A stretch of DNA of 46,920 nt from Acidimicrobiaceae bacterium (GTDB taxonomy: Bacteria > Actinomycetota > Acidimicrobiia > Acidimicrobiales > Aldehydirespiratoraceae): the NCBI GenBank assembly GCA_009843735.1, contig VYCW01000116.1, positions 1 to 46,920 of the forward strand, in the 5' to 3' direction. Positions 778 through 18,230 of the stretch are shown in pieces. The translations under genes were made by a program, and so were the position numbers. Within the stretch, counting starts at the first letter, position 1. Every line of letters begins with the position of its first letter. The notes under the pieces were generated by a model. It saw only the letters and a list, made by a program, of their open reading frames with translations. It did no database searches and was not told the origin of the DNA.

Positions 778-2307
778 TCAGCCGCTGGTGCGTCCCGCCG
801 GTCGGGCTCGAGCCGGCCGCTCCTGGGCGGCCCGCAACAGGCCGGCGAGGAGCCTTCGCCAGATCACCGCGTGGGGCAGCAGCAACAGCCACCAGTAGGC
901 CCGCCCGGCGATGCCGCGGGGATGGAAGCGGGCCCGCTGCTGAAGCACGGTCGCGCCGTCGACGCCGCCGTTGCCGTCGCCGTCGCTGGACACCTGCCAC
1001 TCGAGCCAAGCCTCGCCAGGCAGCTTCATCTCGGCCCTAAGGCGCAGCAGCCACGGCGGGTCATGCACCTCCACCCGGAAGAAGTCGAGGGCGTCGCCCA
1101 CCCGCAGCTCGTCGGGGTGGCGCCGGCCCCGGCGCATGCCGACGCCGCCGAGGAGCTTGTCGACCCAGCCCCGGGCCGCCCAGAGCCGGTCGCCGAAGTA
1201 CCAGCCCCGGTCGCCACCCACTCCCGACACCGCGGCGAACACCGCTTCGGGTGATGCCCCGGTGCGGGCGGTCCGTACATCCTCCAGGACGGTGCCGCCG
1301 GACCAGTCGGGATCCTGGGGCATGGGCGAGGCCGGAGTCGGTGCGGGCGCGCTGTCGATCCAGCTGGTCGAGACGTCGAGGTCCTGCACCTGCGACAGGG
1401 CACGGCGCAGCGCCTCGTCGAACGGCAGCGTCCGGCGAGTCCCGAACAGCGCCGCCGCGGGGTCGGGGTCGGTCACCACCACGTCGTTGCGCAGGCTGTC
1501 GACCAGCGGCCGGGCCAGCCCGATGGGCAGGGGCGTGACCAGGTTCACCCAGTGCGACGACAGCCGGGGGGTGAGCACGGGCACGCCCAGGATCAGGCGG
1601 CGCCGCAGCCCGGCCACCGCCGCGTAGCGCTCCATCATCTCCCGGTAGGTGAGCACGTCGGGGCCGCCGATCTCAATGCGCTGGCTGCCGGCGGCCGGCG
1701 AGTCGAGGGCAGCCACCAGGCTGTGCAGCACATCGGCGATGGCGATCGGCTGGCAGCGGGTGCGGGTCACCCACCGGGGGCAGACCATCACCGGCAGCAC
1801 CTCGACCAGGCAGCGCAGCATCTCGAAGGAGGCACTGCCCGAGCCGATAATGACCGCGGCCCGCAGTTCGGTGACGGGAACGGAGCCCGATTCGAGGAGC
1901 CGGCCGACCTCGTGGCGGCTGGCCAGATGGTGCGACAGGGCTAGTGGATCTTCGCCGCCCAGTCCCCCGAGGTAGACGAGGCGCCCCACGCCGGCCTCCT
2001 GGGCGGCCACACCGGTGTTGTGCGCCCCGGCCCGGTCGGCTTGCTCGAAATCCTTGGCGTGGCCCATGGCGTGGACGAGGTAGTAGACGGCGTCGAGCCC
2101 CTCGAACCCCCGGCGCAGCGACGCCTGGTCGAGCACGTCGGCTTCGGCCACCTCCACCTCGGCTCGCCAGGCCACACCGTCGAGCCGTCCGGGTGCTCGG
2201 GCCAGGCACCGCACCCGGTGCCCGGCGTCGAGCAGGGCCGGGACCAGTCTCCCGCCCACATACCCGGTGGCGCCGATCACGCCGACGTTCAAGCCAGCCT
2301 GCTTCAT
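778..2307 (-). CDS. Atypical SDR NAD(P)-binding protein with C-terminal DUF2867 domain
   Basis: The product has 509 residues. The N-terminal ~300 residues are a Rossmann-fold atypical short-chain dehydrogenase: VGVIGATGYVGGRLVPALL near residue 8 is the dinucleotide-binding loop, followed by DVLDQASLRRGFEGLDAVYYLVHAM. The C-terminal ~170 residues, beginning near VRTARTGASPEAVFAAVSG and including RGWYFGDRLWAARGWVDKL, match DUF2867. This SDR plus DUF2867 architecture is common in actinobacteria, where it is annotated as a nucleoside-diphosphate-sugar epimerase-like protein of unknown substrate. No classical YxxxK pair is evident, so it may be a non-catalytic NAD(P) binder or a quinone-reductase-like protein. 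The ATG at 2307 has a good GGAGG ribosome site 5 nt upstream. It is divergent from the flavin hydroxylase gene at 2437. Confidence 0.88.
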   Translation of the reverse strand: MKQAGLNVGVIGATGYVGGRLVPALLDAGHRVRCLARAPGRLDGVAWRAEVEVAEADVLDQASLRRGFEGLDAVYYLVHAMGHAKDFEQADRAGAHNTGVAAQEAGVGRLVYLGGLGGEDPLALSHHLASRHEVGRLLESGSVPVTELRAAVIIGSGSASFEMLRCLVEVLPVMVCPRWVTRTRCQPIAIADVLHSLVAALDSPAAGSQRIEIGGPDVLTYREMMERYAAVAGLRRRLILGVPVLTPRLSSHWVNLVTPLPIGLARPLVDSLRNDVVVTDPDPAAALFGTRRTLPFDEALRRALSQVQDLDVSTSWIDSAPAPTPASPMPQDPDWSGGTVLEDVRTARTGASPEAVFAAVSGVGGDRGWYFGDRLWAARGWVDKLLGGVGMRRGRRHPDELRVGDALDFFRVEVHDPPWLLRLRAEMKLPGEAWLEWQVSSDGDGNGGVDGATVLQQRARFHPRGIAGRAYWWLLLLPHAVIWRRLLAGLLRAAQERPARARPAGRTSG

Positions 2308-2423
2308 GCGAGCCTCCCGCGTCCGGTCTCGATGCCGGGTTCATGGCCGGATGGGCCCGAACATAACGGCCCGGACTCTCGGTGGGATCGCGAACCGGCG
2401 GCAGGCGGGTCGGGTTGGCGCTC

Positions 2424-2429
2424 TAGATT
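2424..2429 (+). promoter_or_regulatory. Probable -10 box (TAGATT) of a leaderless promoter
   Basis: TAGATT fits the actinobacterial TANNNT -10 pattern and ends 7 nt before the GTG start at 2437. No Shine-Dalgarno sequence lies between them, so transcription probably begins at or next to the start codon. No clear -35 is visible. The assignment rests on spacing and consensus only. Confidence 0.45.
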
Positions 2430-2436
2430 GGGCTGT

Positions 2437-3591
2437 GTGACTCATCGGTTGCTGGCTGCGGCCCGCGAGCTGGGGCCCGCCATCAGTGCCCGCTCGGCGG
2501 AGATCGAGGCGCTGGGCACGCTGCCGATGGACCTGGTGGATGAGATCCGGCCGACCGGGGCGTTCCGGATGTGCGTGCCCGCCGACCTGGACGGCCCGGA
2601 GGTGACCGCGGTCGAGAGCCTGGAGATATTCGAGGAGTTCGCCTATCACGACGGCTCGGTCGGCTGGTGTGTGGCCATCGCGGCCACGACGTCGCTGCTG
2701 GCGTCGTACCTGCCCGACCCTCACGCCGCCGCCCTGTTCGGCGATCCCTCCGCCATCGGCGGGGGGTTCGTGATGCCCCGGGGCCGGGCCGTGCCCACCG
2801 AGGGAGGGCTGCGGGTATCGGGGCGCTGGCAGTGGGGCTCGGGCACCAAGCACTGCACCACCGTCGGGGGCGGATGCCGTGTGGTCGGTCCCGACGGGCA
2901 GCCCGAGCCCCGCGACGATGGTCTGGCCGTGCCGTTCGTGTTCATGGATCCCAGCGACATCACCTTCATCGAGACGTGGGACGTGGCCGGGTTGGCCGGG
3001 ACCGGCTCGGTCGATTTCGAGGCTCGTGACGTGTTCGTTCCCGAGGGCCGCTGGGTGCAGATCGGCGCGGGTGGTCCGGTCCGGGACAACGCCTGGTCCC
3101 GGTTCTCGTTCTACGGGCTGCTGGCCTGCGGGGTGGCCTCGGCCGCGGTGGGAATCGCCCGCCGCTCGATCGACGAGCTGGTGGAGTTGTCCGGGGCGAG
3201 GAAGCCCCAGGGCAGCACCCGGACCCTGGCCGAGCGGGCCACCACCCAGGCCGGCGTGGCCGAGGCCGAGGCGAGGCTGGCCGCGGCGTGGGGGCTGATG
3301 CTCGACGCGGTGGACGGCACCTGGCAGAGCGCGCTGGCGGGTCAGCCCTCGACGGTCGATCAGAAGCGACGGATCCGGCTGGCCGCCACCCACGCCACCC
3401 AGACCGCGGCCGGCGTGGCCGCGTCGATGTTCACCGCTGCGGGCGGGGCCGCCGTGTATCGCACCAGCCCGGTCCAGCGCTGCTTCCGGGACGCTGCGGT
3501 GGCCGCCCAGCACGCCATGGTGGCGCCCCGCACGATGGAGACCGCGGGGCGGCTGCGGATGGGGCTCCCCACCGACACCACCACGCTGTGA
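2437..3591 (+). CDS. Acyl-CoA dehydrogenase-like flavin hydroxylase (group D monooxygenase type)
   Basis: The product has 384 residues and resembles the acyl-CoA dehydrogenase fold as used by two-component flavin hydroxylases such as HsaA and HpaB-type enzymes. Seen in the sequence: an all-helical N-terminus (LLAAARELGPAISARSAEIE), a central beta domain with GRWQWGSGTKHCTTVGGGC near residue 128, and a helical C-terminal domain ending in RCFRDAAVAAQHAMVAPRT, typical of the Acyl-CoA_dh_2 domain. Such proteins oxygenate an aromatic or polycyclic substrate with reduced flavin supplied by a partner reductase; no reductase is visible nearby. GTG 2437 is chosen because homology starts there and a TANNNT box sits 7 nt upstream; the frame stays open further upstream but overlaps the divergent gene. 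It is followed 45 nt later by an F420-type oxidoreductase gene. The substrate is unknown. Confidence 0.82.
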   Translation: MTHRLLAAARELGPAISARSAEIEALGTLPMDLVDEIRPTGAFRMCVPADLDGPEVTAVESLEIFEEFAYHDGSVGWCVAIAATTSLLASYLPDPHAAALFGDPSAIGGGFVMPRGRAVPTEGGLRVSGRWQWGSGTKHCTTVGGGCRVVGPDGQPEPRDDGLAVPFVFMDPSDITFIETWDVAGLAGTGSVDFEARDVFVPEGRWVQIGAGGPVRDNAWSRFSFYGLLACGVASAAVGIARRSIDELVELSGARKPQGSTRTLAERATTQAGVAEAEARLAAAWGLMLDAVDGTWQSALAGQPSTVDQKRRIRLAATHATQTAAGVAASMFTAAGGAAVYRTSPVQRCFRDAAVAAQHAMVAPRTMETAGRLRMGLPTDTTTL

Positions 3592-3595
3592 CCCG

Positions 3596-3634
3596 CCGCT
3601 GTGATCCGCTGCTGCCCGCTGTGATCCGCTGCTG
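3596..3634 (+). repeat. Two tandem 19-bp direct repeats, period 20
   Basis: CCGCTGTGATCCGCTGCTG occurs at 3596-3614 and again, identical, at 3616-3634. It fills the gap between the flavin hydroxylase stop and the next ATG at 3637. It is probably a local slippage duplication; a binding site for a regulator is possible but unsupported. Confidence 0.8.
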
Positions 3635-3636
3635 AC

Positions 3637-4542
3637 ATGGTCGCCGTCGGACTGAGCCTGCCGTGGGGTCTGTGGGGGCTGCCGCCGGGTGAGCAGCGGG
3701 CCTTGCTGGGCCGGATCGCCGATGCCGGCATCGACCATGTGTTCACCGCCGACCATGTGAGCTTCCGCGACGGCAGTGGCATGGACGGCCTGGTCACCCT
3801 GGCCGCGCTCAGCGGGCTCGAGCCCCGGCTCGGCCTGCATGTGGGCGTCTACCTGCTGGGGTTGCGCCACCCGATGGTGGCCGCCCGCCAGATCGCCACA
3901 CTGGCCGAGGCCGCGCCCGGACGGCTGACGGTGGGAGTGGGCGTTGGGGGCGACGACCGTCACGAGGTCGAGGTCTGCGATGTCGATCCCTCCACCCGGG
4001 GCCGCCGCACCGATATCGCGCTGGGCCTGGTGCGGGCCCTGCTGGCGGGCGAGACGGTCGACGGCGACGGCGAGTTCTTTCAGTTCCGGGGCGGGAAGAT
4101 CCGTCCCGTGCCCGATCCGGCGGTGCCGCTGGTGGTCGGGGGCCGCAGCGACGCCGCCCTCGAGCGGGCCGGCCGGCTCGGTGACGGGTGGCTGGCCGCC
4201 TGGTGCTCGCCCCGCCGGTTCGCCGAGGGGATTGCGATGGTCGAGACGGCCGGCGCCGGCCGGAAGGTCGACTGGCACCACGGCCTCCAACTCTGGCTCG
4301 GCGTAGGCACCTCGCCCGAGGAGGGCCGATCCCATGTGGCCGAGACAATGGAGCGCTTCTACCGGATGAGCTTTGAGCCCTTCAAGCGCTACACCCCGTG
4401 CGGCACCGCGGCCGGCATCGCCGAGTTCCTCCAGCCTTACGTCGAAGCCGGGGCGACGACGCTGAACCTCACCCCCTGCGGCCCAGACCGCAACACTGAG
4501 ATCGAGGCCGCGGCCGAAGTGAAACGGCTCCTCTGCCCTTAA
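3637..4542 (+). CDS. LLM-class (luciferase-like) F420-dependent oxidoreductase
   Basis: The product has 301 residues and is a single-domain TIM barrel of the bacterial luciferase-like family. It starts with VGLSLPWGLWGLPPGEQRAL, has the GIDHVFTADHVSF strand, and the conserved VGGRSDAALERAGRLGDGW segment near residue 167 that binds the phosphate of the deazaflavin or flavin. The subgroup usually uses coenzyme F420 in actinobacteria, transferring hydride to or from a small organic substrate. F420 rather than FMN is inferred from the subgroup and from the actinobacterial context. ATG 3637 follows the 20-bp repeat directly and has no strong ribosome site, so translation may depend on coupling with the preceding hydroxylase gene. 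The pair may act in one degradative pathway, with the substrate unknown. Confidence 0.88.
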   Translation: MVAVGLSLPWGLWGLPPGEQRALLGRIADAGIDHVFTADHVSFRDGSGMDGLVTLAALSGLEPRLGLHVGVYLLGLRHPMVAARQIATLAEAAPGRLTVGVGVGGDDRHEVEVCDVDPSTRGRRTDIALGLVRALLAGETVDGDGEFFQFRGGKIRPVPDPAVPLVVGGRSDAALERAGRLGDGWLAAWCSPRRFAEGIAMVETAGAGRKVDWHHGLQLWLGVGTSPEEGRSHVAETMERFYRMSFEPFKRYTPCGTAAGIAEFLQPYVEAGATTLNLTPCGPDRNTEIEAAAEVKRLLCP

Positions 4543-4623
4543 CCGAGCAGCATTGGCGGTTGTTTTAGAATATTTTCATGTTATTGAGTTGCAAGCTGGG
4601 CGAGAGCGACTAAGGTGGGCGTC

Positions 4624-4878
4624 GTGGAGACTCTCGTTCAGGTAGTGACCGTTGCGCTGGCCGTCGTCGCCATCATCTGGCACCAGCAGCGAACCATCGA
4701 CAAACTGCGGGACGGCGCGCTTGAGAAGCTCAGAACAGATGTCGCGGCCAACGGGCAGCGGCTGGCCCGGATCGAGGGCTTCCTCGGCATCGGTATGCCT
4801 GACGCGGCCGCGTCTCAGGCGGCTGGCGCCACACCGGAGAAGCAGCATCCGGAAGTCGAGGAGCCCAACTCGACCTAG
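4624..4878 (+). CDS. Small single-pass membrane protein, unknown function
   Basis: The product has about 84 residues. A hydrophobic segment (residues ~4-20, TLVQVVTVALAVVAIIW) is followed by a basic, helical stretch (HQQRTIDKLRDGALEKLRTD) and a polar tail. The layout suggests an inner-membrane anchor with a short cytoplasmic coiled-coil. GTG 4624 is preferred because AAGGTGG lies 5 nt upstream; a GTG at 4615 in the same frame would add three residues. Its TAG stop shares the CTAG at 4875-4878 with the stop of the convergent sensor gene, so the two transcripts must overlap. I do not recognise a family. The preceding ~70 bases are unusually AT-rich and may hold the promoter. Confidence 0.6.
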   Translation: METLVQVVTVALAVVAIIWHQQRTIDKLRDGALEKLRTDVAANGQRLARIEGFLGIGMPDAAASQAAGATPEKQHPEVEEPNST

Positions 4879-7800
4879 CTTGAGGCCGCGGTGCGAGCGA
4901 TTGTGAGCCACTCGTCTACTCGGGTGCGGTTGTCCTGGATCCACCGGACGGCCAGGTCGCCGGGGTGGGCGCCCTCGAGTTGCGCGACGTTGGCCTGCGA
5001 GACTTCGAGGGGTGTGAGCTTCACCGCCTCGAACAAGGCTCGCGCCACCGGGTTGGCTTCCAGGAACGCGGTATTGGCCGTGACCAGGATGTGCCCTGCG
5101 AGCCAGCCGATGGGGCACTTGCCATCGGGCCGGTCAGCGGCCGAAGGGCACTGGTCGGGTCCGATCGACACCAAGCCGCCGGTGCCGTCGGGGCCGCGCT
5201 GTCCGAACTCCTCGCCGCGCTCGAAGCCTGTGGGGTTGGAGTCGTCGAGGATGTTCTCGACGCCCAACCAGTACACGTTGTCGCCGGGGCGTAGCACGGT
5301 GATGTAGAGAGACGGGGCCCACGTGTAGACAACCATCGGGACCCCTCCGTCGACGTCCTGTCTAGCCAACTCGAAGTCGGCGTCGTAGTCCCCGATGATC
5401 TGGATGATGTTGTCCCAGCCCGAGAACGCGATCATGTTCTCGATGATGTCGTCGCAGGTCCAGAACCCGTCGCAGCCGTAAATCTCGGCCTTGCCGTTGC
5501 CGGGCACGTGATCGGTGGCGTCGTAAGCGGCCAGCGCCTCGGCATTGTTGTTGAGGTCGTCCATGGTGTACGCGCCGTAGGCGTCGGCGAAGGACTTGGT
5601 CACCAGGAAGCCCTGCAGGACGCCGTCGAACAGCATCTCGCCCACCACGCTCAGGTGGTCACCCACCCGCGACCCGTCGGGCAGCTCGACGTCGTGCCAC
5701 TCGTAGTGGCCCGGGTACCAACTGTTCGCCCAGAAGTCCATGTCCTCCAGAGCCATCGCGGTGTAGGCGTCGCTCGGGCTCATCTCCAGCCCAGCCGGAT
5801 CAGACACCCTGTAGCCGAGCTCCTCCAACAGCAGCTTGAACAGCGCTGCCTGGAAGTAGCCCTGGTACCAGTCGGCCCGACCGGCCAGCACCGTCACACC
5901 CTCACCCGGCCGCACGGTCCCGACACCGTCGTCGGCTTCAAGCTCCGGCTGCTCCGGCACCGGCTCCGGCTCGGGCTCGGGCTGCTTTGGTTCGGGGTCG
6001 GGGGCGACGGGCCTCACCCAGCGGACCCCAGCAGGCGGTAGCCGCGGACCCCAGCAGGCGATGGTGTCATCCGTTGCTATGGCACAGCTGTGGTACGAGC
6101 CAGCGCCGACGGCCTTGTAGGTGCCAGACGGCGCGTCGACCAGCCCGGCGTCGTCGGCTCCCCAGCAGACGATCGCACCGTCAGTTGCCACCGCGCAGCT
6201 GTGCCGGTAGCCGGCAGAGACGGCAACGTAGGTGCCAGACGGCGCGTCGACCACCCCTGAGTGGTTGGCGTTCCAGGGGTCGCGCCCTGAGCACGTGATC
6301 GAGCCGTCGGTGGCTAGAGCACAGTTGTGGGCCGTGCCCGCGGAGACAGCGGCAAAGGTTCCAGCCGGCGAGTCGAGCGCGCCGAAGACATCATCCCCCC
6401 AGCAGACGATGGTGTCGTCGACGGCTATGGCGCAGTTGTATGACGGGCCGGCAGAGACAGCCTTGTACGCGCCAGCCGGCGCTGCGGCCTGCCCGGCGTC
6501 GTTGTCCCCCCAGCAGACGATGGCACCGTCAGTTGCCACCGCGCAGCTGTGCCGATCGCCGACGGAGACGTCGATGTAGTTTCCGGCTGGCGGGTCGGCT
6601 CGCCCAGCCAATCCCCAGCAGACGATGCTTTCGTCGGCAGCTACGGCGCAACTCCGGGTCCCGCCAGCAGACACGGCCTTGTAGGCGCCGACCGGTGAGT
6701 CGATCGAACCGTGGATGAGTCCCCAGCAGTCGATGGTGTCGTCAGATGCGAGTGCACAGCCATGGATCGAGCCGACGGAGACAGCTCTGTAGGTCCCGGC
6801 CGGAACGTCAAGCAGCCGGAACGCCAACTCGTCTCCCCAGCAGACGACGCTGTCATCGGCCGCTAGGGCACAACTATGGCTCGCGCCGACAGAGACAGCC
6901 TTGTAGACCCCTGCCGGAGCGTCGGCCGCGCCCCAAGCATCGGACCCCCAACAGTTGATCGCGCCGTCGACTGTGAGCCCACAACTGCTGAACTCTCCGA
7001 CCGAGACAGCCTGATAGGCAGCAGCCGGAACGTCGACCGGTTCACCGCTGTGGGACTCCCAGCAGACGACGCTGTCGTCGTTGGCTATGGCGCAGGTACG
7101 GCCCCCGCCGGCAGAGACGGCCCGGTAGGCGCCACCCGGAACGTCAGCCAGACTCGAGCTATCGGCCCCCCAGCAAGTGATGGTGTCGTCGGCTGCAATC
7201 GCACAACTGTGACTCCTGCCGACAGAGACCGCCTTGTAGTCGCCGGCCGGAACGTCATCCAGCCATGAGCTGTCGACTCCCCAGCAGACGATGCTGTCGT
7301 CGACGGCTACGGCGCAGGTGAACGACCCGCCCGCAGAGACAGCCCTATAGGTACCCGCCGGGGCATCAGCTGAGTCTTCGTCTCCCCAGCAGACGATGCT
7401 GTCGTCGACGGCTATGGCGCAACTGTGTGCCGTGCCGGCAGAGACAGCCTTGTATGTGCCAGCCGGCGCGGCGGCCTGCCCCGCATCGTTGAATCCCCAG
7501 CAGACCACGGTGTCGTCGGCAGCCACGGCGCAACTGTGTGACCCGCCGGTAGAGACAGCCTTGTAGGTGTGCTCTGGATCACCCTCCTCTGCGACCGGGG
7601 CCGTCTCAGGCGGCACCGGCTCCTCCGGCGCCTCAGGCGGCACCTGCTCGTCAGGCGGAGCTTCTGTACCTCGATCCGAGGCCCTACTCGGAGCCTCTGT
7701 ACCTCCATCGGGGCTGTCGGGCGTGGCGTGAGACTCTCCCCTCGATTCTTCGGGTCCATCGGTCTCGAATTCGTCGGGCTGCGCCGCGGTGGGATCCGTG

Positions 7801-8060
7801 GTGGCTACCTCGGTGGTGTCTGACGAGGTGACGATCAGGGCACCGATGACAGCCGCGACCGCAGCCACGGCCGCCGCGGCGGCCAGTGCGGGCCATCGAC
7901 GCCCTCTGCGAACCGGCTGAAGGCCTAGTTCCACGATCAGGCCGTCGTCCTCGGATACCGCATCCCTGGTTGGCTCACCGGAGCGAGCGGAACGGGCCTC
8001 GTTAAGCGCGTCGGCGAGAGCGGGCAGTTCTCGGCGGAGTCGGTCTTCGAAGTTGCTCAC
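4875..8060 (-). CDS. Membrane-anchored RCC1-repeat / OpuAC betaine-binding fusion, putative anti-sigma sensor
   Basis: The product has 1061 residues in five parts. (1) Residues 1-56 form a charged cytoplasmic head starting MSNFEDRLRRELPALADAL; no zinc-finger HxxxCxxC is present. (2) Residues ~56-80 are one membrane segment. (3) Residues ~81-165 are an acidic Pro/Glu/Thr linker. (4) Residues 166-679 hold fourteen repeats of 32-42 residues with the pattern YKAVSAG..HSCAIA.DD.I.CWG, short RCC1/BLIP-II-like propeller blades. (5) After a Pro-Glu linker, residues 714-1061 are an OpuAC/ProX-type substrate-binding domain with an aromatic stretch MDFWANSWYPGHYEW and a conserved Cys-rich loop. The domain is normally a free ABC-importer receptor for glycine betaine or choline, but no permease or ATPase of that system is here. 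The start overlaps the ECF sigma gene by ATGA. Role inferred: an extracytoplasmic ligand sensor holding the sigma factor through the N-terminal head. Confidence 0.85.
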   Translation of the reverse strand: MSNFEDRLRRELPALADALNEARSARSGEPTRDAVSEDDGLIVELGLQPVRRGRRWPALAAAAAVAAVAAVIGALIVTSSDTTEVATTDPTAAQPDEFETDGPEESRGESHATPDSPDGGTEAPSRASDRGTEAPPDEQVPPEAPEEPVPPETAPVAEEGDPEHTYKAVSTGGSHSCAVAADDTVVCWGFNDAGQAAAPAGTYKAVSAGTAHSCAIAVDDSIVCWGDEDSADAPAGTYRAVSAGGSFTCAVAVDDSIVCWGVDSSWLDDVPAGDYKAVSVGRSHSCAIAADDTITCWGADSSSLADVPGGAYRAVSAGGGRTCAIANDDSVVCWESHSGEPVDVPAAAYQAVSVGEFSSCGLTVDGAINCWGSDAWGAADAPAGVYKAVSVGASHSCALAADDSVVCWGDELAFRLLDVPAGTYRAVSVGSIHGCALASDDTIDCWGLIHGSIDSPVGAYKAVSAGGTRSCAVAADESIVCWGLAGRADPPAGNYIDVSVGDRHSCAVATDGAIVCWGDNDAGQAAAPAGAYKAVSAGPSYNCAIAVDDTIVCWGDDVFGALDSPAGTFAAVSAGTAHNCALATDGSITCSGRDPWNANHSGVVDAPSGTYVAVSAGYRHSCAVATDGAIVCWGADDAGLVDAPSGTYKAVGAGSYHSCAIATDDTIACWGPRLPPAGVRWVRPVAPDPEPKQPEPEPEPVPEQPELEADDGVGTVRPGEGVTVLAGRADWYQGYFQAALFKLLLEELGYRVSDPAGLEMSPSDAYTAMALEDMDFWANSWYPGHYEWHDVELPDGSRVGDHLSVVGEMLFDGVLQGFLVTKSFADAYGAYTMDDLNNNAEALAAYDATDHVPGNGKAEIYGCDGFWTCDDIIENMIAFSGWDNIIQIIGDYDADFELARQDVDGGVPMVVYTWAPSLYITVLRPGDNVYWLGVENILDDSNPTGFERGEEFGQRGPDGTGGLVSIGPDQCPSAADRPDGKCPIGWLAGHILVTANTAFLEANPVARALFEAVKLTPLEVSQANVAQLEGAHPGDLAVRWIQDNRTRVDEWLTIARTAASS
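6024..7565 (-). repeat. Fourteen in-frame coding repeats (RCC1/BLIP-II-like blades)
   Basis: The DNA encodes 14 consecutive repeats, each about 105-126 bp, with strongly similar codons (for example CCCCAGCAGACGATG recurring on the plus strand). Each carries two cysteines separated by exactly nine residues. Repeat 12 is the longest at 42 residues and is the only one with CSG instead of CW after its second cysteine; repeat 14 is the shortest at 32. Near-identity at DNA level would favour gain or loss of blades by recombination. Confidence 0.9.
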
Positions 8061-8563
8061 TCCATCTCCCCTCTAAGCGCAGCGATGGCGCGGTGGGCCA
8101 GCGAGCGCACCGTTCCCGGCCGGACGCCCAGCACTTCCGCGATCTCCTCATCGCGAAGGTCGGCGAAGTAGCGCAACACCACCACCAGGCGCTGGCGGTC
8201 GGTGAGGCGGTCCAGTGCGGTGCGCAAGTCGATGAGCTGCTCCGGGATGTCGTCGTCGGCGACCTCGAGGCGGGCAGCCCGGTAGCGCTGCTCGATGGTG
8301 CGGCGCCGCAGAACCCCCGCGCATCCGTTGATCACCGACCTTCTCAGGTACGCATCCGGCCGATCGACGGTGTCCCAGCGCTCGCTCACCGCTACGAAGG
8401 CGTCCTGCACGACCTCTTCGGCGATCGCGGGCGATCCGACGAGCAGCGTGGCCAGCCGAACCATGGGTACGCGCCTGGCCGAGAACAGCCCGTCGAAGCT
8501 GCCGCCTGCGTTCAGCGTCGGCTCTGGCGGAACGCGAGGATCGCGGTCCGAACCTGTCTCCAT
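8057..8563 (-). CDS. ECF-type RNA polymerase sigma factor
   Basis: The product has about 168 residues. Sigma region 2 (VPMVRLATLLVGSPAIAEEV followed by QDAFVAVSERW) contacts core polymerase and the -10 element. Region 4 (LTDRQRLVVVLRYFADLRDE with EIAEVLGVRPGTVRSLAHRA) is the helix-turn-helix for the -35 element. This is the SigE-like group of small actinobacterial ECF factors with no extra domain. ATG 8563 is preferred over the adjacent GTG 8566 because AGG lies 5 nt before the run into it. Its end overlaps the start of the large sensor gene by ATGA, the classic arrangement of an ECF factor with its membrane anti-sigma partner. Upstream, only 42 nt separate it from the stop of the ornithine-cyclodeaminase-like gene, so it may also be read from that operon. 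The target regulon is unknown. Confidence 0.93.
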   Translation of the reverse strand: METGSDRDPRVPPEPTLNAGGSFDGLFSARRVPMVRLATLLVGSPAIAEEVVQDAFVAVSERWDTVDRPDAYLRRSVINGCAGVLRRRTIEQRYRAARLEVADDDIPEQLIDLRTALDRLTDRQRLVVVLRYFADLRDEEIAEVLGVRPGTVRSLAHRAIAALRGEME

Positions 8564-8581
8564 CACTACCTAAGATGCACG

Positions 8582-8594
8582 AAACCGGCGGTTT
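8582..8594. promoter_or_regulatory. Perfect inverted repeat AAACCG-G-CGGTTT upstream of the ECF sigma gene
   Basis: A 6-bp perfect palindrome with a one-base centre lies 19 nt upstream of the sigma factor ATG and 12 nt before the stop of the upstream gene's coding strand. It is well placed to be an operator or part of a promoter for the sigma-sensor operon. It is too short and lacks a T-tract for a convincing terminator. Confidence 0.35.
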
Positions 8595-8605
8595 GTTGCA
8601 GGCCT

Positions 8606-9535
8606 TCAGCGGAGGGCGAGGCGGGCTGCGGCTAGGTCAGCGACCGCGAAGCCGGCCGACTTGAACAGGGTGATCTCTTCGGCAGAGGTGCGACCGGGGT
8701 GGTGGCCGGTGGCGAGGGCGTGAAGGTCGGCCGCGATCGAGGCCTCAGTGATTACGCCGTCGGCCAGCGGCTGGGCCAGGTCGCCGGACATGACGGCGCC
8801 CGCAAGGGTGTCGACGAAGATCGTGGCTCGGGCCGCGGCTTCGTCGTCGGACTCGCGCATGTCCGGCTGGAAGCTGCCGACGAGATCGAGGTGGGCGCCC
8901 GGGGCCAGCAGCTCGCCGCGCACCAGCGGCTGGGTGGCGCCGGTAACGCACGAGACGATGTCGGCCCGACCGATGCTGGTGTCGAGATCGTCGGACGCTT
9001 CGGCCGGCAAGCCCTCGACTCGTAGGGTCTCGGCGACTGACGCGGCCGCCTCGGGGCGGCGTCCCCAGACCTCGATGCGGGCCAGCGAGCGGACCGCAGC
9101 GTGGGCCCGGGCCATGTTGGGTGCCAGGACTCCGGTGCCGACGACCAGCAGGTGCTGGGCGTCGGGGCGGGCCAGGCAGTCGGCGGCCAGAGCAGAGATC
9201 GCGGCCGTGCGGCGAGCTGTCAGCTCGTCGCCGTCGAGAACGGCGGCGACCTGGCCGGTGCCGCCGTCGAAGGCGAGATAGGCGGCGTTGACCGTCGGCA
9301 CGTCGGTGCCGGCGTTGGACGGGAAGTAGGTGACGGCCTTGACGCCGATCATCTCGGTGTCTGCCCAGGCCGGCATCAACAGGAAGGCTCCGGTGCCGCC
9401 GCCGGGAAGGCCGACCGGATGCACGTGACGTTCGGGTGCGGTCACGGCGTCCTCGGTGAGCGCCTCGGCGATGGCCGAGATCAGCTCGGGCCACGGCGTA
9501 GCGGCCCGGACGGCGGCAGCGTCAAGGACGCGCAT
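8606..9535 (-). CDS. Ornithine cyclodeaminase / mu-crystallin family enzyme (DauB-like)
   Basis: The product has 309 residues, the usual length of this NAD(P)-dependent family. Seen: the N-terminal substrate domain with TEMIGVKAVTYFPSNAG near residue 61, the DGDELTARRTAAISALAAD segment around residue 105, and a Rossmann domain starting HLLVVGTGVLAPNMARAHAA near residue 129. The family includes ornithine cyclodeaminase, pyrroline-2-carboxylate reductase, alanine dehydrogenase and L-arginine dehydrogenase DauB, which sequence alone does not separate. The gene lies 64 nt after a very DauA-like D-amino-acid dehydrogenase gene. In Pseudomonas the DauA/DauB pair turns D-arginine to L-arginine through the 2-oxo acid, so an amino-acid dehydrogenase or imine reductase role is the best inference. 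ATG 9535 follows an in-frame GTG. Confidence 0.88.
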   Translation of the reverse strand: MRVLDAAAVRAATPWPELISAIAEALTEDAVTAPERHVHPVGLPGGGTGAFLLMPAWADTEMIGVKAVTYFPSNAGTDVPTVNAAYLAFDGGTGQVAAVLDGDELTARRTAAISALAADCLARPDAQHLLVVGTGVLAPNMARAHAAVRSLARIEVWGRRPEAAASVAETLRVEGLPAEASDDLDTSIGRADIVSCVTGATQPLVRGELLAPGAHLDLVGSFQPDMRESDDEAAARATIFVDTLAGAVMSGDLAQPLADGVITEASIAADLHALATGHHPGRTSAEEITLFKSAGFAVADLAAARLALR

Positions 9536-9602
9536 CACGCCGAGAATGTCACGCCTTCCGTCCCCGTGCCAGATCTCGTCGGCTCGTCGGAGCCAGCACC
9601 GC

Positions 9603-10736
9603 CTAGCGCGCGAAACGCTGAGGTCTAAGTTCGGCCGCGAGATCGGTGGGGAGCCTTTCTGGGGCTGTACCGCTGATCAGGTCTGCGACCAGCGAGGCGA
9701 TGGCCGGGGAGGTCTGGATGCCGGTGCCGCCCTGTCCGGCGCACCAGAAGAACCCCGGCGCGCCGGGATCGAAGCCGACGACCGGGACCCGGTCCGGAGC
9801 GAACGTGCGCAAGCCGGCCCAGGTGGAACGGACCGAGCGCACGTCGAGGACCGTGGCCCGGTTGACAGCCTCGATCCCGGCGGCGACGTCGATCTCGCGG
9901 GGCTTGACATCGCAGGCATCCACGGGGTCCTCGTCAGCGGGCGAGGCCAGGAACTGCCCAGTGCCCTCGGGCTTGAAGTAGAAGCTCTCGTCGCCCCCGA
10001 CGACCAGGGGCCAGCTCGCCGACTCGTGACGGCTGGCGAAGGTGAACACAGTGCGCCGGTACGGCTGCAGGCCGACGGGGCGCGCGCCGGCCATGCCGGC
10101 CACCTCGTCGGCCCAGGCGCCAGCCGCGTTGACGACGGTGGCGCAGCTCAGCACCCGCTCTCCCACGTCCACTTGCCAACACCCGTCGCGGCGGGCGAGC
10201 GCCCGCACCCCGTGTTCCCGTAGCACCGCCGCCCCCTCGGCGCGGGCGCCGCGCAGGAAGGCCTGGTGCAATTCGGCTACGTCGATGTCGAAGCCGCCGT
10301 ACTCGATCACACCGGCATCGAGCCACTGCGGGTCGAGTACGGGGCAGAGGCTGATGGCGCCGGCGGCATCGAGGCGCTCGCACGGTGTGCCCGTGGTCTG
10401 GTTGGCGGCGACCGTCGCCGCCACCTGCTCCTCGAAGCCGGCGGGGGCGACCCACAGCACGTTGCGGGGCTCCAGCAGCTCGCTGTCGGCCAGGCCGTCG
10501 GCGCCGGTCGCCAGGAACGGCAGCGACGCCGCGCTCAGGACCCGGTTGGCCGGCTCGCCGTAGGAGGCCAGGAACTGGGCGACCGACCGTCCCGTGCTGT
10601 GCGCGGTGAGCGACGCCTCGCGCTCGACGACCGCCACACGGTGCCCGCGCCGGGCCAACGCCCAGGCAGCCGACATCCCGGCCATGCCCCCACCGACGAT
10701 GACTACATCGAATGAGCGGGAGGAGGAACCGGTCAT
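9603..10736 (-). CDS. dauA: FAD-dependent D-amino-acid dehydrogenase, DauA-like
   Basis: The product has 377 residues and is a DAO-fold flavoenzyme. FAD-binding motif VVIVGGGMAGMSAAWALA lies near residue 11, followed by EREASLTAHSTGRSVAQF. Many further stretches follow the D-arginine dehydrogenase of Pseudomonas as I remember it: GLQPYRRTVFTFAS, GDESFYFKPEGTGQFLASPA, STWAGLRTFAPDRVPVVGF and APGFFWCAGQGGTGIQTSPA. It would oxidise a D-amino acid (basic ones in DauA) to the imino acid, which hydrolyses to the 2-oxo acid, passing electrons to a quinone or another acceptor. The DauB-like gene follows directly, and a racemase and importer lie upstream. ATG 10736 is chosen; a GTG at 10745 in frame is possible. 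Neither start has a strong ribosome site. Substrate specificity is inferred. Confidence 0.85.
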   Translation of the reverse strand: MTGSSSRSFDVVIVGGGMAGMSAAWALARRGHRVAVVEREASLTAHSTGRSVAQFLASYGEPANRVLSAASLPFLATGADGLADSELLEPRNVLWVAPAGFEEQVAATVAANQTTGTPCERLDAAGAISLCPVLDPQWLDAGVIEYGGFDIDVAELHQAFLRGARAEGAAVLREHGVRALARRDGCWQVDVGERVLSCATVVNAAGAWADEVAGMAGARPVGLQPYRRTVFTFASRHESASWPLVVGGDESFYFKPEGTGQFLASPADEDPVDACDVKPREIDVAAGIEAVNRATVLDVRSVRSTWAGLRTFAPDRVPVVGFDPGAPGFFWCAGQGGTGIQTSPAIASLVADLISGTAPERLPTDLAAELRPQRFAR

Positions 10737-10869
10737 GGCTACCACGAACTATACGAACCCCCGCTCACGCCGTGGGATAGGCACCCGGCTGTTCCAAGGC
10801 CGCGACAGCCAGCGTGTTGCCCTCGATCACCGCTGGCCCCGATCCGCCCGCGGGGCGTGTCGCCGGGCG

Positions 10870-11598
10870 CTATCCGCCTGCGGGGCTGGTTCGCTCCTTG
10901 TCGGGCGGCGGCATGTAGGTCCGGCGACTGGGCCTCAGGCCCATCGAGTGCATGGTCAGCAGCGTCCCGAGGGCGGCGCCCGTCGGATCGACCACCGGCA
11001 CACGCGCTTGATCCGACTCCAGCCGGTCTTGGAGAGCGGCCGCGACACCGAGCATTCCGGTGCATCCCAGCACCAAGACGTCGGCACCCGCATCAAGGGC
11101 TCGGCACGAGGCTTCGAAGAGGTTCTTGAGCAGCACGTCGCCGTCGTGCAGCTCCAGCACGGGGGTGTCGATCACCTCTATGGACGCCATCCGGCTCCTC
11201 ACACCCATCCGGGAGGCCAGCGTGGAGATCATGGGCACGACATTCTCCAGCACGGTGACAACCGAGAAGCGCTCCCCGAGGTTCAGGGCCGTGGTCACCG
11301 CGGGCTCGAACCCGCCCACCACCGGTATGTCGACGAGTTCCCGGGCTGCAGGAACCGCGGGATCACCGAAGCAGGTGATGAACACCGCGTCCGCTCCCTG
11401 GGCCTCGGCCCGCACGACCTCGGCGACGATGGCGGGACCTGCGAGGACCTCGTCATAGAACGACTCGATAGAGGCGGGGCCGTACGGGAGGCACGAGACC
11501 TCCAAGCCAATGCCGTCGCCGAGGAAGCCGCGGGCCTCCTCAGCGATCTGGTCGTTGAACGAGTCCGATGTGATCGGAACAACGATGTGGACTCTCAT
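10870..11598 (-). CDS. Asp/Glu/hydantoin racemase family protein
   Basis: The product has 242 residues. The fold is the two-domain Asp/Glu racemase type, with the two catalytic cysteines visible in ADAVFITCFGDPAVPAAREL (near residue 75) and DVLVLGCTGMLGVAAALQ (near residue 180). Between them lies VVTVLENVVPMISTLASRMG. Length and motifs fit hydantoin racemase HyuE or allantoin racemase better than classical glutamate racemase MurI. It would interconvert enantiomers of a 5-substituted hydantoin or a related compound without cofactor in the cytoplasm. ATG 11598 is supported by an AAGGGA ribosome site. The gene follows the ABC permease gene by about 50 nt and so belongs to the importer operon. 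Hydantoin specificity is inferred from the HyuA-like and DUF917 genes further upstream. Confidence 0.85.
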   Translation of the reverse strand: MRVHIVVPITSDSFNDQIAEEARGFLGDGIGLEVSCLPYGPASIESFYDEVLAGPAIVAEVVRAEAQGADAVFITCFGDPAVPAARELVDIPVVGGFEPAVTTALNLGERFSVVTVLENVVPMISTLASRMGVRSRMASIEVIDTPVLELHDGDVLLKNLFEASCRALDAGADVLVLGCTGMLGVAAALQDRLESDQARVPVVDPTGAALGTLLTMHSMGLRPSRRTYMPPPDKERTSPAGG

Positions 11599-11647
11599 TG
11601 TGGTCTTCCCTTTCTGCATTGGATTGCGGACGGTCGATTCCTTCGGG

Positions 11648-12622
11648 CTAGGCGCGTCGGGCTCTGGACCAGGCGTCGGTGGCGACGGCCACGAGGATCA
11701 CGAGACCCTGGATGATTCGCTGCCAGATGGGGTCAATCTGGTGGAGGTTGAACCCGTTGACCATGAAGGCGATGAAGAAGGCCCCTAGCAGCGTCCTCCA
11801 CACCGCGCCGGTGCCGCCCGCGATGGAGGTGCCGCCCACGACGATCGCGGCGATGACACCGAACACAAAGCTGAAGTCGTCGGAGGGGGTCGCACTGATG
11901 GTCCGCGACGCGGCCACCACACCGGCGAGCCCGGCGGCGAGCCCCGACAGTGCGAACACGGCCACGACCACCTGCCGCGTGCGCACACCAGCGAGCCTGG
12001 CAGCCTCGACGTTGCCTCCCGTGGCGTACACATGGCGACCGAACCGGGTTGCAGCCAGCGTGATCCAGGCCATCAACACGACCGCCAGCGAGATCCATGT
12101 GGCCGTCGTGAGCTCGGCGAATCGTGTGCGGGCGATGTCTCGGAAGCTGTCGCTGGAGGGCCGCATGATGCTGCGCTCGCTGACGACGTAGCCAATTCCG
12201 AAGACGATGAAGGACGTAGCCAGAGTCGTAATGAACGAGTTGATCCGCGCGAATGCCACGATTGAACCGTTGGCTGTTCCGACGACCAGACCGAACGCGC
12301 ATCCTGCGAGCAAGGCCAGCGCGACGGAGCCGGTGGCGTTCTCGACTCGCAGCGCTACCAGCGGGGCGGCCACCGCAACCGCCGAGATCGACACGTCGAA
12401 ACCGCCTGCGATCATGGTCAGCGTGGCAACGGAGGCGGCTATCAGCAGCGTCGCCTGCTGGTCGAGAACGTTGCGCAGGTTGGGGCCGGTCAAGAACCCG
12501 TCGGTTGTGATGGCAAGCAGCACGAACAGAGCGACGGTCACCCAGACGATGCCGTAGCGGGCAAACAACCCGACGTATCGGTTGGCTCCGGATGGCCGCG
12601 GCGGCGCGGCTGCATCCGTCAT
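11648..12622 (-). CDS. ABC importer permease, RbsC family
   Basis: The product has 324 residues, almost entirely hydrophobic, with about ten membrane segments. It begins after a short cytoplasmic leader (RYGIVWVTVALFVLLAIT). The conserved RbsC-family signature is seen in LLIAASVATLTMIAGGFDVS near residue 62, where the GG.DLS-type motif is GGFDVS, and in VFGVIAAIVVGGTSIAGGTG near residue 250. It forms the membrane channel with the ATPase encoded just upstream, and the two genes overlap by 4 bases (ATGA). RbsC-family permeases move pentoses, but also nucleosides, autoinducer-2 and other small polar molecules, so a sugar should not be assumed. Only one permease gene is present, so the channel is expected to be a homodimer. 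Confidence 0.93.
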   Translation of the reverse strand: MTDAAAPPRPSGANRYVGLFARYGIVWVTVALFVLLAITTDGFLTGPNLRNVLDQQATLLIAASVATLTMIAGGFDVSISAVAVAAPLVALRVENATGSVALALLAGCAFGLVVGTANGSIVAFARINSFITTLATSFIVFGIGYVVSERSIMRPSSDSFRDIARTRFAELTTATWISLAVVLMAWITLAATRFGRHVYATGGNVEAARLAGVRTRQVVVAVFALSGLAAGLAGVVAASRTISATPSDDFSFVFGVIAAIVVGGTSIAGGTGAVWRTLLGAFFIAFMVNGFNLHQIDPIWQRIIQGLVILVAVATDAWSRARRA

Positions 12623-14205
12623 GAGTTCTGGCCGACCGCGGCTTCCTCACCGAAGGCATGCCGCAGGATCTGCGTCTCGTCCAGGTCGGGATGGATGAAC
12701 TCCGCAACGAACCGCCCGTCTCGCATGACGAGCACGCGGTGGCAGAGCCCCACCAGTTCCTCGAGTTCCGAGGACACGAGCAGCACCGCGAGGCCGTCGG
12801 TAGCCGCGGCCGCGATCAGGTCGTAGATCGAGCGCTTGGAGCCCACGTCGACTCCCCTGGTGGGTTCATCGGCGATGAGGACTCTCAGACCGGGAGCCGT
12901 CCAACGCGCGAACAGGGATTTCTGTTGGTTGCCTCCTGACAGCAGCCTGACGGGCGTCTCAAGCCCTCCGCCGCGCACTCCGGCACGTGCCGCGGATGCG
13001 GATACCAACTCGCGCTCGGAGCGTCGGGTCACGAGACCTGCCCTCGTGACCCGTCGTAGGTGCGGGAGGCCGACGTTCTCGCGAAGGCTGCGCTCCATCA
13101 GCAGTCCTTGATCCTTGCGAGACTCGGGAATGAGCCCTAGGCCAGCGCTGATCGACTCACGCGGCCGGAAGCGGCCGGCGCGCCCGCCAGCGACCTGCAC
13201 ACTTCCGGCGACAGGTCTGTCAGCGCCGTAGACACACCTGACGAACTCCGTGCGGCCCGATCCGACCAGCCCTGCGATGCCGACAATCTCGCCAGGGAGC
13301 ACGTCCAGGTCGAGCCCCGCCATGAGCGGGGTGGCGGCAGAAGCGGGGTGTCCGGCGGAGCCTGCGGGAATCAGGTCTCGGACTCTCAGAACCGGGGACT
13401 GGGACGGCTCCGGAGGTGGTGGCTTGGGCGGGAAGTTGCCTTCGAGCTTGCGGCCGATCATGGCCTCGACGAGGGATCCAGTCGTCTCTGACGACGGCTT
13501 GGTGCTTCTCACGACGCGCCCGTCGCGCATGACTGTGATGTCATCGGCGAGCTCGAGGACTTCGTCGAGAAAGTGGGAGATAAAGAGGACGGTGATCTTC
13601 TGATCGCGCAGAGACCGCACCAGGCGGTGGAGTTGGTCGCGCTCCTGCGCTGAGAGGCGGGCCGAGGGCTCGTCCATGATCACGAACTCAGATCGCCGGG
13701 CCGCAGCTCGGAGGATCTCGACCCGCTGCTGGTCGGCAACGCTGAGACTCCCGACTCTCGCGGCCGGATCAATCGGGATGCCGGTGCGCTCGACGAGCGC
13801 CTCGAAGCGCTGCACGGTGTCGTTGCGGGCCACGAATCCGCACCGAGTCGACTCGACTCCGAGGAAAACGTTGTCGGCCACGCTGCGGTCCGGCACGAGG
13901 GCCAGTTCCTGGGCGATGGCGGTGATGCCGGAGGTGAACGCCTGCCTCGGTGATCGGAACCGGCACGGGCGGCCGTTGACGATCATCGATCCGCTGTCGG
14001 CGGTGTGCACTCCAACGATGATCTTCCCGACGGTGGACTTGCCCGCGCCGTTCTCGCCGACGAGTGCATGGATACAGCCGCGCCGGATGGAGATGTCTGC
14101 GCGATCGACGGCCTGGGTGGTGCCGAACCGTTTGGATACGGCGCGCAGCTCGATATGAGCGGGCTCGTCAATATGAGCGGGCTCGCCAGGCTGAGGATCA
14201 GCCAT
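12619..14205 (-). CDS. ABC importer ATPase with two nucleotide-binding domains, RbsA/MglA family
   Basis: The product has 528 residues with duplicated ABC domains. In the first, Walker A GENGAGKST is near residue 53, the signature-like LSVADQQRVEILRAA near 150, and Walker B EFVIMDEPS follows. In the second, the Walker A region is the divergent GLVGSGRTEFVRC near 320, with the signature LSGGNQQKSLFARW near 425 and Walker B VLIADEPTRGVDVGSKRSI. This asymmetry is normal for the RbsA family. The protein sits on the inner face of the membrane and powers the RbsC-type permease. The start overlaps the end of the binding-protein gene by 8 bases, indicating translational coupling. The N-terminus repeats GEPAHIDEPAHIE, a small in-frame duplication. 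Confidence 0.94.
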   Translation of the reverse strand: MADPQPGEPAHIDEPAHIELRAVSKRFGTTQAVDRADISIRRGCIHALVGENGAGKSTVGKIIVGVHTADSGSMIVNGRPCRFRSPRQAFTSGITAIAQELALVPDRSVADNVFLGVESTRCGFVARNDTVQRFEALVERTGIPIDPAARVGSLSVADQQRVEILRAAARRSEFVIMDEPSARLSAQERDQLHRLVRSLRDQKITVLFISHFLDEVLELADDITVMRDGRVVRSTKPSSETTGSLVEAMIGRKLEGNFPPKPPPPEPSQSPVLRVRDLIPAGSAGHPASAATPLMAGLDLDVLPGEIVGIAGLVGSGRTEFVRCVYGADRPVAGSVQVAGGRAGRFRPRESISAGLGLIPESRKDQGLLMERSLRENVGLPHLRRVTRAGLVTRRSERELVSASAARAGVRGGGLETPVRLLSGGNQQKSLFARWTAPGLRVLIADEPTRGVDVGSKRSIYDLIAAAATDGLAVLLVSSELEELVGLCHRVLVMRDGRFVAEFIHPDLDETQILRHAFGEEAAVGQNS

Positions 14206-15412: not shown

Positions 15413-15461
15413 CGGATCCCCCCTCACGATGGGAATTGTGAGCCTGTGGAGGCACGGTAAG

Positions 15462-15480
15462 GAGCCCCGAACCGGGGCTC
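15462..15480. promoter_or_regulatory. Perfect hairpin/palindrome GAGCCCC-N5-GGGGCTC before the importer operon
   Basis: A 7-bp perfect inverted repeat with a 5-base loop lies 50 nt upstream of the binding-protein ATG and 85 nt after the pucR stop, both on the minus strand. It could end pucR transcription or serve as an operator for PucR. There is no T-run after it, so an operator is at least as likely as a terminator. Confidence 0.45.
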
Positions 15481-15564
15481 AATGGGCAGACCGCTGCCAT
15501 ACGGGCACTGCGAAGTGCAGTTCTTGCACCCAGGAGGCAAGTCCCTGCTGGAGCGGAGAACGGG

Positions 15565-17151: not shown

Positions 17152-17164
17152 CAGGGACGTTCTA

Positions 17165-18181: not shown

Positions 18182-18230
18182 CGGGTCTCCTACCGCAAGA
18201 GTCGGGCGGCGTTCGACATGGAGCCCCGCA

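Follow-up and report, generated by a model that had tools for sequence, protein, structure and literature searches.

An extracytoplasmic function (ECF) sigma factor that may answer to a small molecule outside the cell is encoded in a 46,920-nucleotide stretch of DNA from an Acidimicrobiaceae bacterium (contig VYCW01000116.1, positions 1 to 46,920; hereafter the window). Its gene overlaps that of a large protein with a predicted cytoplasmic head, one predicted membrane pass, RCC1-type repeats and a domain resembling the betaine receptors ProX and OpuAC. We think it probable that the large protein is a membrane anti-sigma factor: it would hold the sigma factor through its head and free it when the outer OpuAC domain, as predicted, binds a betaine-like solute. 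As far as we know, most membrane anti-sigma factors still lack a known ligand. The predicted outer domain here has a well-understood receptor fold whose cage residues are conserved, making the input directly testable. An outside dissolved molecule would then likely decide when a set of related surface proteins is made.

In the model developed here, the sigma factor and its anchor would be made together from the overlapping genes, and a helix in residues 1-25 of the head would bind the sigma factor. A cage of three tryptophans would bind a solute of the quaternary amine kind or a related one; the RCC1 propellers would serve as a stalk or as a second binding surface. We infer that binding frees the sigma factor; it would do so by triggering proteolysis of the anchor, the least certain of the steps. 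The free sigma factor would then transcribe its own operon and genes for secreted RCC1, OpuAC and SLH proteins from promoters of the form TGCAACA-N15-GCATCKTNG. The model is built on the following features.

8570-8600, minus strand: ECF-type promoter motif TGCAACA-N15-GCATCTTAG directly before the sigma gene, found by motif comparison; a nearly leaderless transcript is predicted.
8057-8566, minus strand: ECF sigma gene, SigE-like by Pfam and NCBIfam; 169 amino acids from the GTG at 8566, or 168 from the ATG at 8563.
8057-8060, minus strand: four-base overlap GTGA between the sigma stop and the start of the large gene, read from the sequence.
4875-8060, minus strand: large open reading frame (ORF) of 1061 amino acids with a GTG start, from the ORF listing and translation.
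7986-8060, minus strand: head, residues 1-25, containing FEDRLRRELPALADAL, the predicted sigma-binding helix; residues 2-25 are helical in the structure model (modest confidence), and the head is conserved across outer-domain types.
7830-7892, minus strand: predicted single membrane pass, residues ~57-77, from the one hydrophobic stretch in the sequence and a hydropathy scan of relatives.
6018-7565, minus strand: 14 RCC1/BLIP-II-like repeats, residues 166-681, possibly two seven-bladed propellers, from Pfam, motif count, model and Foldseek.
4878-5921, minus strand: OpuAC/ProX-like domain, residues 714-1061 (726-1042 by Pfam), from Pfam, alignment and Foldseek.

The smaller gene encodes an ECF factor by its content, sigma-70 regions 2 and 4 alone in about 170 amino acids. 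Pfam matches Sigma70_r4_2 (E 2.4e-14) and Sigma70_r2 (E 6.4e-7), and NCBIfam model TIGR02937 scores 68.8 bits against a cut-off of 42.9. Membership of SigE-fam_strep (TIGR02983) was rejected, the score of 129.5 bits lying under that model's cut-off of 141.55. A preliminary description of this DNA, made from sequence alone, had an ECF sigma gene overlapping the gene for the large protein by ATGA. The sigma gene and the overlap are there, but the four bases read GTGA and the large ORF starts with GTG.

The same description gave the large protein a cytoplasmic head, one membrane pass, 14 repeats and a complete OpuAC domain. This anatomy agrees with Pfam, motif count, hydropathy and an AlphaFold2 model, the membrane pass being a prediction. 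RCC1_2 is matched in 11 stretches (E 1.4e-70); motif counting gives 14 repeats, and 14 three-strand units also appear at residues 166-681 of the model. That model, the whole-protein prediction that had been proposed as a check, has a mean predicted local distance difference test score (pLDDT) of 74 and a predicted template modelling score of 0.45, with low confidence at residues 25-162. Its top Foldseek match in the PDB is ProX (1r9l, E 1.2e-18); UVR8 and, through their RCC1-like ectodomains, the plant receptor kinases ACR4/CR4 come next. Between the membrane segment and the repeats, Pfam, NCBIfam and the AlphaFold2 model gave nothing recognisable (for an autocleavage domain, the content of the libraries is unconfirmed).

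The outer domain is a recognisable solute receptor. The proposed search for PF04069 finds OpuAC at residues 726-1042 (E 1.6e-21) with 77.6 bits, over the curated cut-off of 21.2; the NCBIfam ProX model gives E 1.4e-45 and 155.8 bits, under its cut-off of 215. The window domain has the fold, three tryptophans and two cysteines in common with the ProX/OpuAC receptors (PDB 1r9l, 3l6g). Trp65, Trp140 and Trp188 of ProX align with Trp781, Trp867 and Trp914 of the large protein, and Cys136 and Cys142 with Cys863 and Cys869. We take the three tryptophans of ProX to be its betaine-binding aromatic cage, and all three are present here. A regular-expression count finds all three tryptophan motifs in 26 of 33 related proteins, and the seven misses may reflect loose patterns. 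The window domain is 88% identical to that of a relative at locus L064 and 75% identical to that of the lipoprotein-like protein P0004. ProX/OpuAC receptors serve ATP-binding cassette (ABC) importers; the window domain differs from them in sitting C-terminally on a predicted anti-sigma protein.

How closely is such a protein tied to the sigma factor? An alignment of the sigma factor, scanned against genome contigs, confirmed at least 409 relatives, and the best 80 of these were kept as loci. This is the search of other genomes that the preliminary description had called for. The sigma gene has an exact four-base overlap with the downstream ORF in 71 of the 80, and a hydrophobic 19-mer (mean > 1.5) lies within 130 residues of that ORF's start in 78, the other two being cut by contig ends; the choice of ORF favoured both features. 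Because the identical overlap and anatomy recur in relatives, the gene pair in the window is not a product of chance. The large protein has the marks of a membrane anti-sigma factor, being encoded directly behind the sigma gene with a membrane segment predicted by hydropathy. Its head is 44-88% identical over 25 amino acids in 14 relatives that represent all outer-domain types. The motif [FLIV]-E-[DE]-R-L-R-x-[ED]-[LM]-x-x-L-A is kept in OpuAC, RCC1 and kelch-like proteins and is looser in a fusion with an LRR domain.

A second search was independent of the sigma factor. A profile built from 10 rows and 74 positions, covering the head together with the membrane segment, was scored against up to 150 candidates per genome in 16 genomes of the genus and up to 14 per genome in 397 genomes of the order. 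The genus genomes gave six places in five genomes, 6/6 directly behind a sigma relative; the order gave ten places in nine genomes, 10/10 directly behind an ECF sigma relative. The finding that could have undone the proposal, homologues never beside an ECF gene, did not appear: head-bearing relatives with visible context adjoin a sigma gene. The head-less proteins P0004 and P0019 start like lipoproteins.

These searches bear on a different account: the large protein would share its expression with the sigma factor but not bind it, and would act at the surface as a receptor or as an accessory to transport. OpuAC domains are indeed used for transport in this organism. At loci L002 and L004 the window's genome encodes two further OpuAC proteins, one of them with the domain twice in tandem; each gene lies beside a ProV-type ATPase gene, and ordinary betaine-type import seems to be present as well. 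Yet the head was found only behind sigma genes, the overlap is conserved across Actinomycetota, the head stays constant while outer domains change, and no ProV/ProW-type gene was found among the neighbours scanned (window 2020-19871). We consider mere co-expression very unlikely, and on the two grounds of neighbourhood and head placement we rejected the large protein as an ordinary transport receptor. As the receptor of an ABC importer it was rejected because the nearby ABC genes, described below, are of sugar type and come with their own receptor gene.

The outer part of these proteins is variable. Pfam domains were counted in 76 proteins, the window's and those of 75 of the 80 relatives, five cut ones having been dropped. 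Gmad2 occurs in 19, Germane in 15, RCC1_2 in five, OpuAC in three (the window, L064 and L068), kelch and PD40 in two each, and LysM and PKD in one each, among others; a good part of the 76 have no outer domain recognised by Pfam. OpuAC with a window-type head is found behind a sigma gene in the window, L064 and L068, and also in P0001 and P0012, which came from a protein search with the gene neighbourhood out of view. Taken together, these comparisons suggest that the overlapping sigma/anchor pairs form a broad sensor-swapping family whose overlap is kept across Actinomycetota. Overlapping pairs of like kind also occur in Nonomuraea, Actinomadura, Nocardioides and others (L084-L143). OpuAC and RCC1 members stand together in each of two clades (support 99/97 and 91/83) when 20 sigma sequences are placed in a tree; therefore the outer domain has changed more than once.

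Which part of the window protein is the input? It could be the RCC1 propellers, which would sense some environmental or host protein or polymer, with OpuAC an added surface-binding module that takes no part in signalling. RCC1 is the sole recognised outer domain in L065, L066, L067 and L069, and over 454 positions the RCC1 part of the window protein shares 76% identity with the RCC1 part of P0016, which combines cyclophilin and RCC1. Proteins matching SLH, trypsin or fibronectin domains also carry OpuAC, at 60-69% identity to the window domain, and there it is apparently a surface module outside transport. Against this stand the conserved cage residues and the OpuAC domains that sit on the same head with no recognised RCC1 in L068, P0033 and P0121, all free of assembly gaps (in L064 a 10-N gap in the stalk leaves the absence of RCC1 uncertain). 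We regard an RCC1 input as unlikely and prefer solute binding by OpuAC.

Where did the receptor domain come from? In L065, L066 and L069 a third gene overlaps the RCC1-type anchor gene by four bases; it has a lipoprotein-like start (lipobox judged by eye) and RCC1 repeats. In L065 an OpuAC piece lies beyond a 10-N gap and is 100% identical over 416 amino acids to the intact protein P0019 (RCC1 and OpuAC); in L069 a 100-N gap is followed by an ORF carrying both RCC1 and OpuAC; in L066 no OpuAC was found. Third genes with RCC1(-OpuAC) modules occur in three of the six closest loci among the matches listed. In L067 only the first codons of the third gene remain, by eye, and none was seen in the window or L064. 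Because three relatives carry these modules on a third overlapping, lipoprotein-like gene, the receptor domain was probably captured from such a partner. The series from separate lipoprotein-like gene to fusion suggests an evolutionary route to sensors of this type.

The motif before the sigma gene points to a candidate regulon. It is the only match in the window at up to two mismatches, with 0.11 expected. TGCAACA-N15-GC(A/G)TC(G/T)T stands a few bases before the sigma start in the window and in L064-L072 (nine of 15 relatives examined), even where the upstream genes differ; the six more distant relatives examined have other sequences there. A strict pattern was built from sigma upstream regions alone. 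In the window's genome (G000), G363 and G262 its exact sites lie three times before sigma genes and three times elsewhere, the latter preceding a membrane protein with RCC1, a protein with SLH and RCC1, and a lipoprotein-like RCC1 gene that a contig end interrupts. At up to two mismatches the strict motif did no better than its reversed control in G000 (14 versus 21 matches) and came close to the control in G363 and G262, so exact sites were used instead.

The motif was then altered, two positions being widened and one narrowed, using sites already seen in these three genomes, which makes the resulting count partly circular. With up to one mismatch allowed it matched 22 sites across the 16 genus genomes, 14 of them exactly, against 4 for the reversed control. 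All 14 exact sites fall in the five genomes with a close sigma relative (E < 1e-50); the remaining 11 genomes, including three with a distant one, have no exact site (Fisher p 2.3e-4). G398 and G401 were not among the genomes used to alter the motif, although their sigma promoters were already known from L067 and L066. Their exact sites away from sigma genes number two: an SLH-RCC1 gene lies behind one, and only a short lipoprotein-like ORF behind the other. For five of the eight non-sigma exact sites, the protein behind the site combines RCC1 or OpuAC with SLH or a lipoprotein-like start; the other three precede the RCC1 membrane protein at L177, a membrane protein with no Pfam match at L176, and the short ORF. 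The motif also stands before the SLH-RCC1 gene directly upstream of the sigma gene in L068. When six more genomes of the order were searched, the altered motif gave eight sites at up to one mismatch against six for the control, and the three exact ones (G273, G254, G131) were the sigma genes' own, with no wider regulon. Sensor and regulon, as predicted from these sites, would be built from shared RCC1/OpuAC modules. For uncultured Acidimicrobiales, the sites offer a regulon of RCC1-type surface proteins that can be tested. By eye, the proteins under this motif at L177:2092-3870 and L176:3316-5430 have a sigma-like start that runs straight into a membrane segment and outer domain, without sigma core and head.

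Relatives that carry sigma and head in one chain led us to prefer proteolysis for the release step. These natural fusions are P0033 and P0121 (sigma, head and OpuAC) and P0123 (LRR). IutY of Pseudomonas putida, in the parts of the source available, is likewise a sigma/anti-sigma fusion and is freed by regulated intramembrane proteolysis (PMC8999054). From this analogy and the imperfect fusions we infer that the window system may work by proteolytic release. A site-2 protease family member (PF02163) is encoded in the window's genome, as in 14/14 control genomes. The alternative is release by conformational change or competition, the head being drawn away from the sigma factor by the solute or by a partner lipoprotein. 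It accords with the separate lipoprotein-like gene of three relatives, and no protease was recognised among the scanned neighbours right beside the pair. In the fusions, however, the sigma factor would stay tied unless cut, though two of the three look incomplete. Because of that incompleteness we have marked the proteolytic step down and its rival up, and we now rate release without proteolysis as somewhat doubtful; with the support of the head-anchored search, our estimate for the solute-gated anti-sigma factor as a whole is unchanged.

Several observations weigh against that overall reading. P0033 and P0121 lack the sigma start and have no Pfam match to region 2; P0033 departs from a stretch invariant in eight relatives, and P0121 retains only a short hydrophobic stretch. 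By eye, only P0123 among the three fusions has a full-length sigma part, and P0033 and P0121 may reflect gene decay, wrongly called starts or misassembly. An AlphaFold2 model of P0033 gives the head helix block a pLDDT of about 35-66 and does not dock it confidently to the sigma part. Because RCC1 alone serves as outer domain in four relatives, OpuAC is unnecessary for the architecture. The NCBIfam anti-sigma model is matched by 4 of the 76 downstream proteins, the window's falling far under the cut-off (E 8e-4); Pfam recognised no anti-sigma domain in its head, and the NCBIfam anti-sigma hit has E 7.7e-4 and 19.5 bits, against a cut-off of 100. Finally, the window's own genome has a single non-sigma site, in front of an SLH-OpuAC gene (G000:C53); it lies 128 bases from the ATG and is weaker than the rest, being exact to the altered motif and two mismatches from the strict one.

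The preliminary description had proposed that a receptor domain was captured as the input of an anti-sigma sensor responding to an osmolyte or quaternary amine. The head always found behind sigma in the genomes searched, the interchangeable outer domain, the presence of OpuAC also in L064 and L068 and the preserved cage residues all speak for this idea; the docking in the AlphaFold2 model of P0033, which is not confident, does not. The anti-sigma sensor survives in our account as a prediction, but as one of a sensor-swapping family: its receptor domain probably came from a partner lipoprotein, and the predicted regulon is one of surface proteins, not of osmoprotection. Tentatively, and with rather less conviction than the sensor itself, we entertain a one-step osmolyte-to-promoter receptor: a substrate-binding protein captured stepwise, from lipoprotein to anti-sigma fusion to sigma fusion, that might switch an ECF sigma factor controlling an RCC1/OpuAC surface coat in animal-associated bacteria.

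The description also knew of no such system, and the solute-receptor outer domain does set this pair apart; its logic, however, is close to one already described. The nearest is SigI-RsgI of Clostridium thermocellum. In the portions of the sources available, the sigma gene mostly overlaps the anti-sigma gene, whose product has a cytoplasmic head and one membrane helix; the outer sensor domains diverge (CBM3, CBM42, PA14, GH10), the promoter is autoregulated and several targets carry CBMs (PMC12203970, PMC4711584). As far as those portions go, the window pair is alike in its overlap, head, single predicted helix, variable outer domains, own-promoter motif and predicted targets with sensor modules. 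As in RsgI, the head and membrane helix are conserved in the family while the outer binding domains vary. It differs in that RsgI, by the same accounts, has a periplasmic autocleavage domain, none being recognised in the window protein, and binds polysaccharides, whereas the outer part here is a solute-receptor domain with RCC1 propellers. To our knowledge, SigI is not an ECF factor. No RsgI model was matched in the Pfam and NCBIfam scans, and we describe the window protein as working like RsgI without being a member.

Other anti-sigma systems offer partial parallels. We know of no solute-receptor fold in RsiV. That protein, as far as the available text goes, is degraded by regulated intramembrane proteolysis upon an extracellular signal, the protein lysozyme (PMC6066255). 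IutY, compared above with P0033, P0121 and P0123, differs in serving iron-siderophore signalling, and the available text describes no solute-receptor domain of its own (PMC8999054). ECF52 factors such as SCO4117, again from partial sources, resemble the window system as actinobacterial ECF factors with a membrane segment, a proline-rich region and an outer binding domain; unlike the two overlapping genes here, they unite sigma and regulator in a single chain, which has a zinc finger and binds carbohydrate through a domain of its own (PMC5826349, PMC8999054). We rejected ECF52 membership, the genes being separate and Pfam finding no zinc finger or sugar-binding domain. A literature search returned no paper combining ECF sigma factor, anti-sigma and RCC1; those with anti-sigma and RCC1, or anti-sigma and OpuAC, were on other subjects by title.

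Upstream of the sigma gene (8606-19871, minus strand) lie genes for an ornithine-cyclodeaminase-like reductase, an FAD oxidoreductase, an Asp/Glu racemase, a sugar-type ABC importer, a PucR-type regulator, an M19 dipeptidase and a hydantoinase. The ABC genes (11648-15427) match sugar-type models best and have a receptor gene of their own. By eye, a similar reductase gene also precedes the sigma gene in L064 and L065. Scans of 4400-9700 for sigma-70 promoters and terminators gave nothing above shuffled controls, and a defence role was rejected, PADLOC giving one weak partial match (E 4e-4). P0122, which came from a protein search, has no head and looks chimeric. The closest loci, among the matches listed, come from metagenome-assembled genomes labelled Acidimicrobiaceae or Acidimicrobiia and one labelled Gemmatimonadetes; some protein relatives are named Candidatus Poriferisocius or Poriferisodalis, and the SB-numbered assemblies presumably come from sponges. 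The Gemmatimonadetes contig, L068, carries a sigma/OpuAC pair and an SLH-RCC1 gene like the Acidimicrobiales ones, through either misbinning or transfer.

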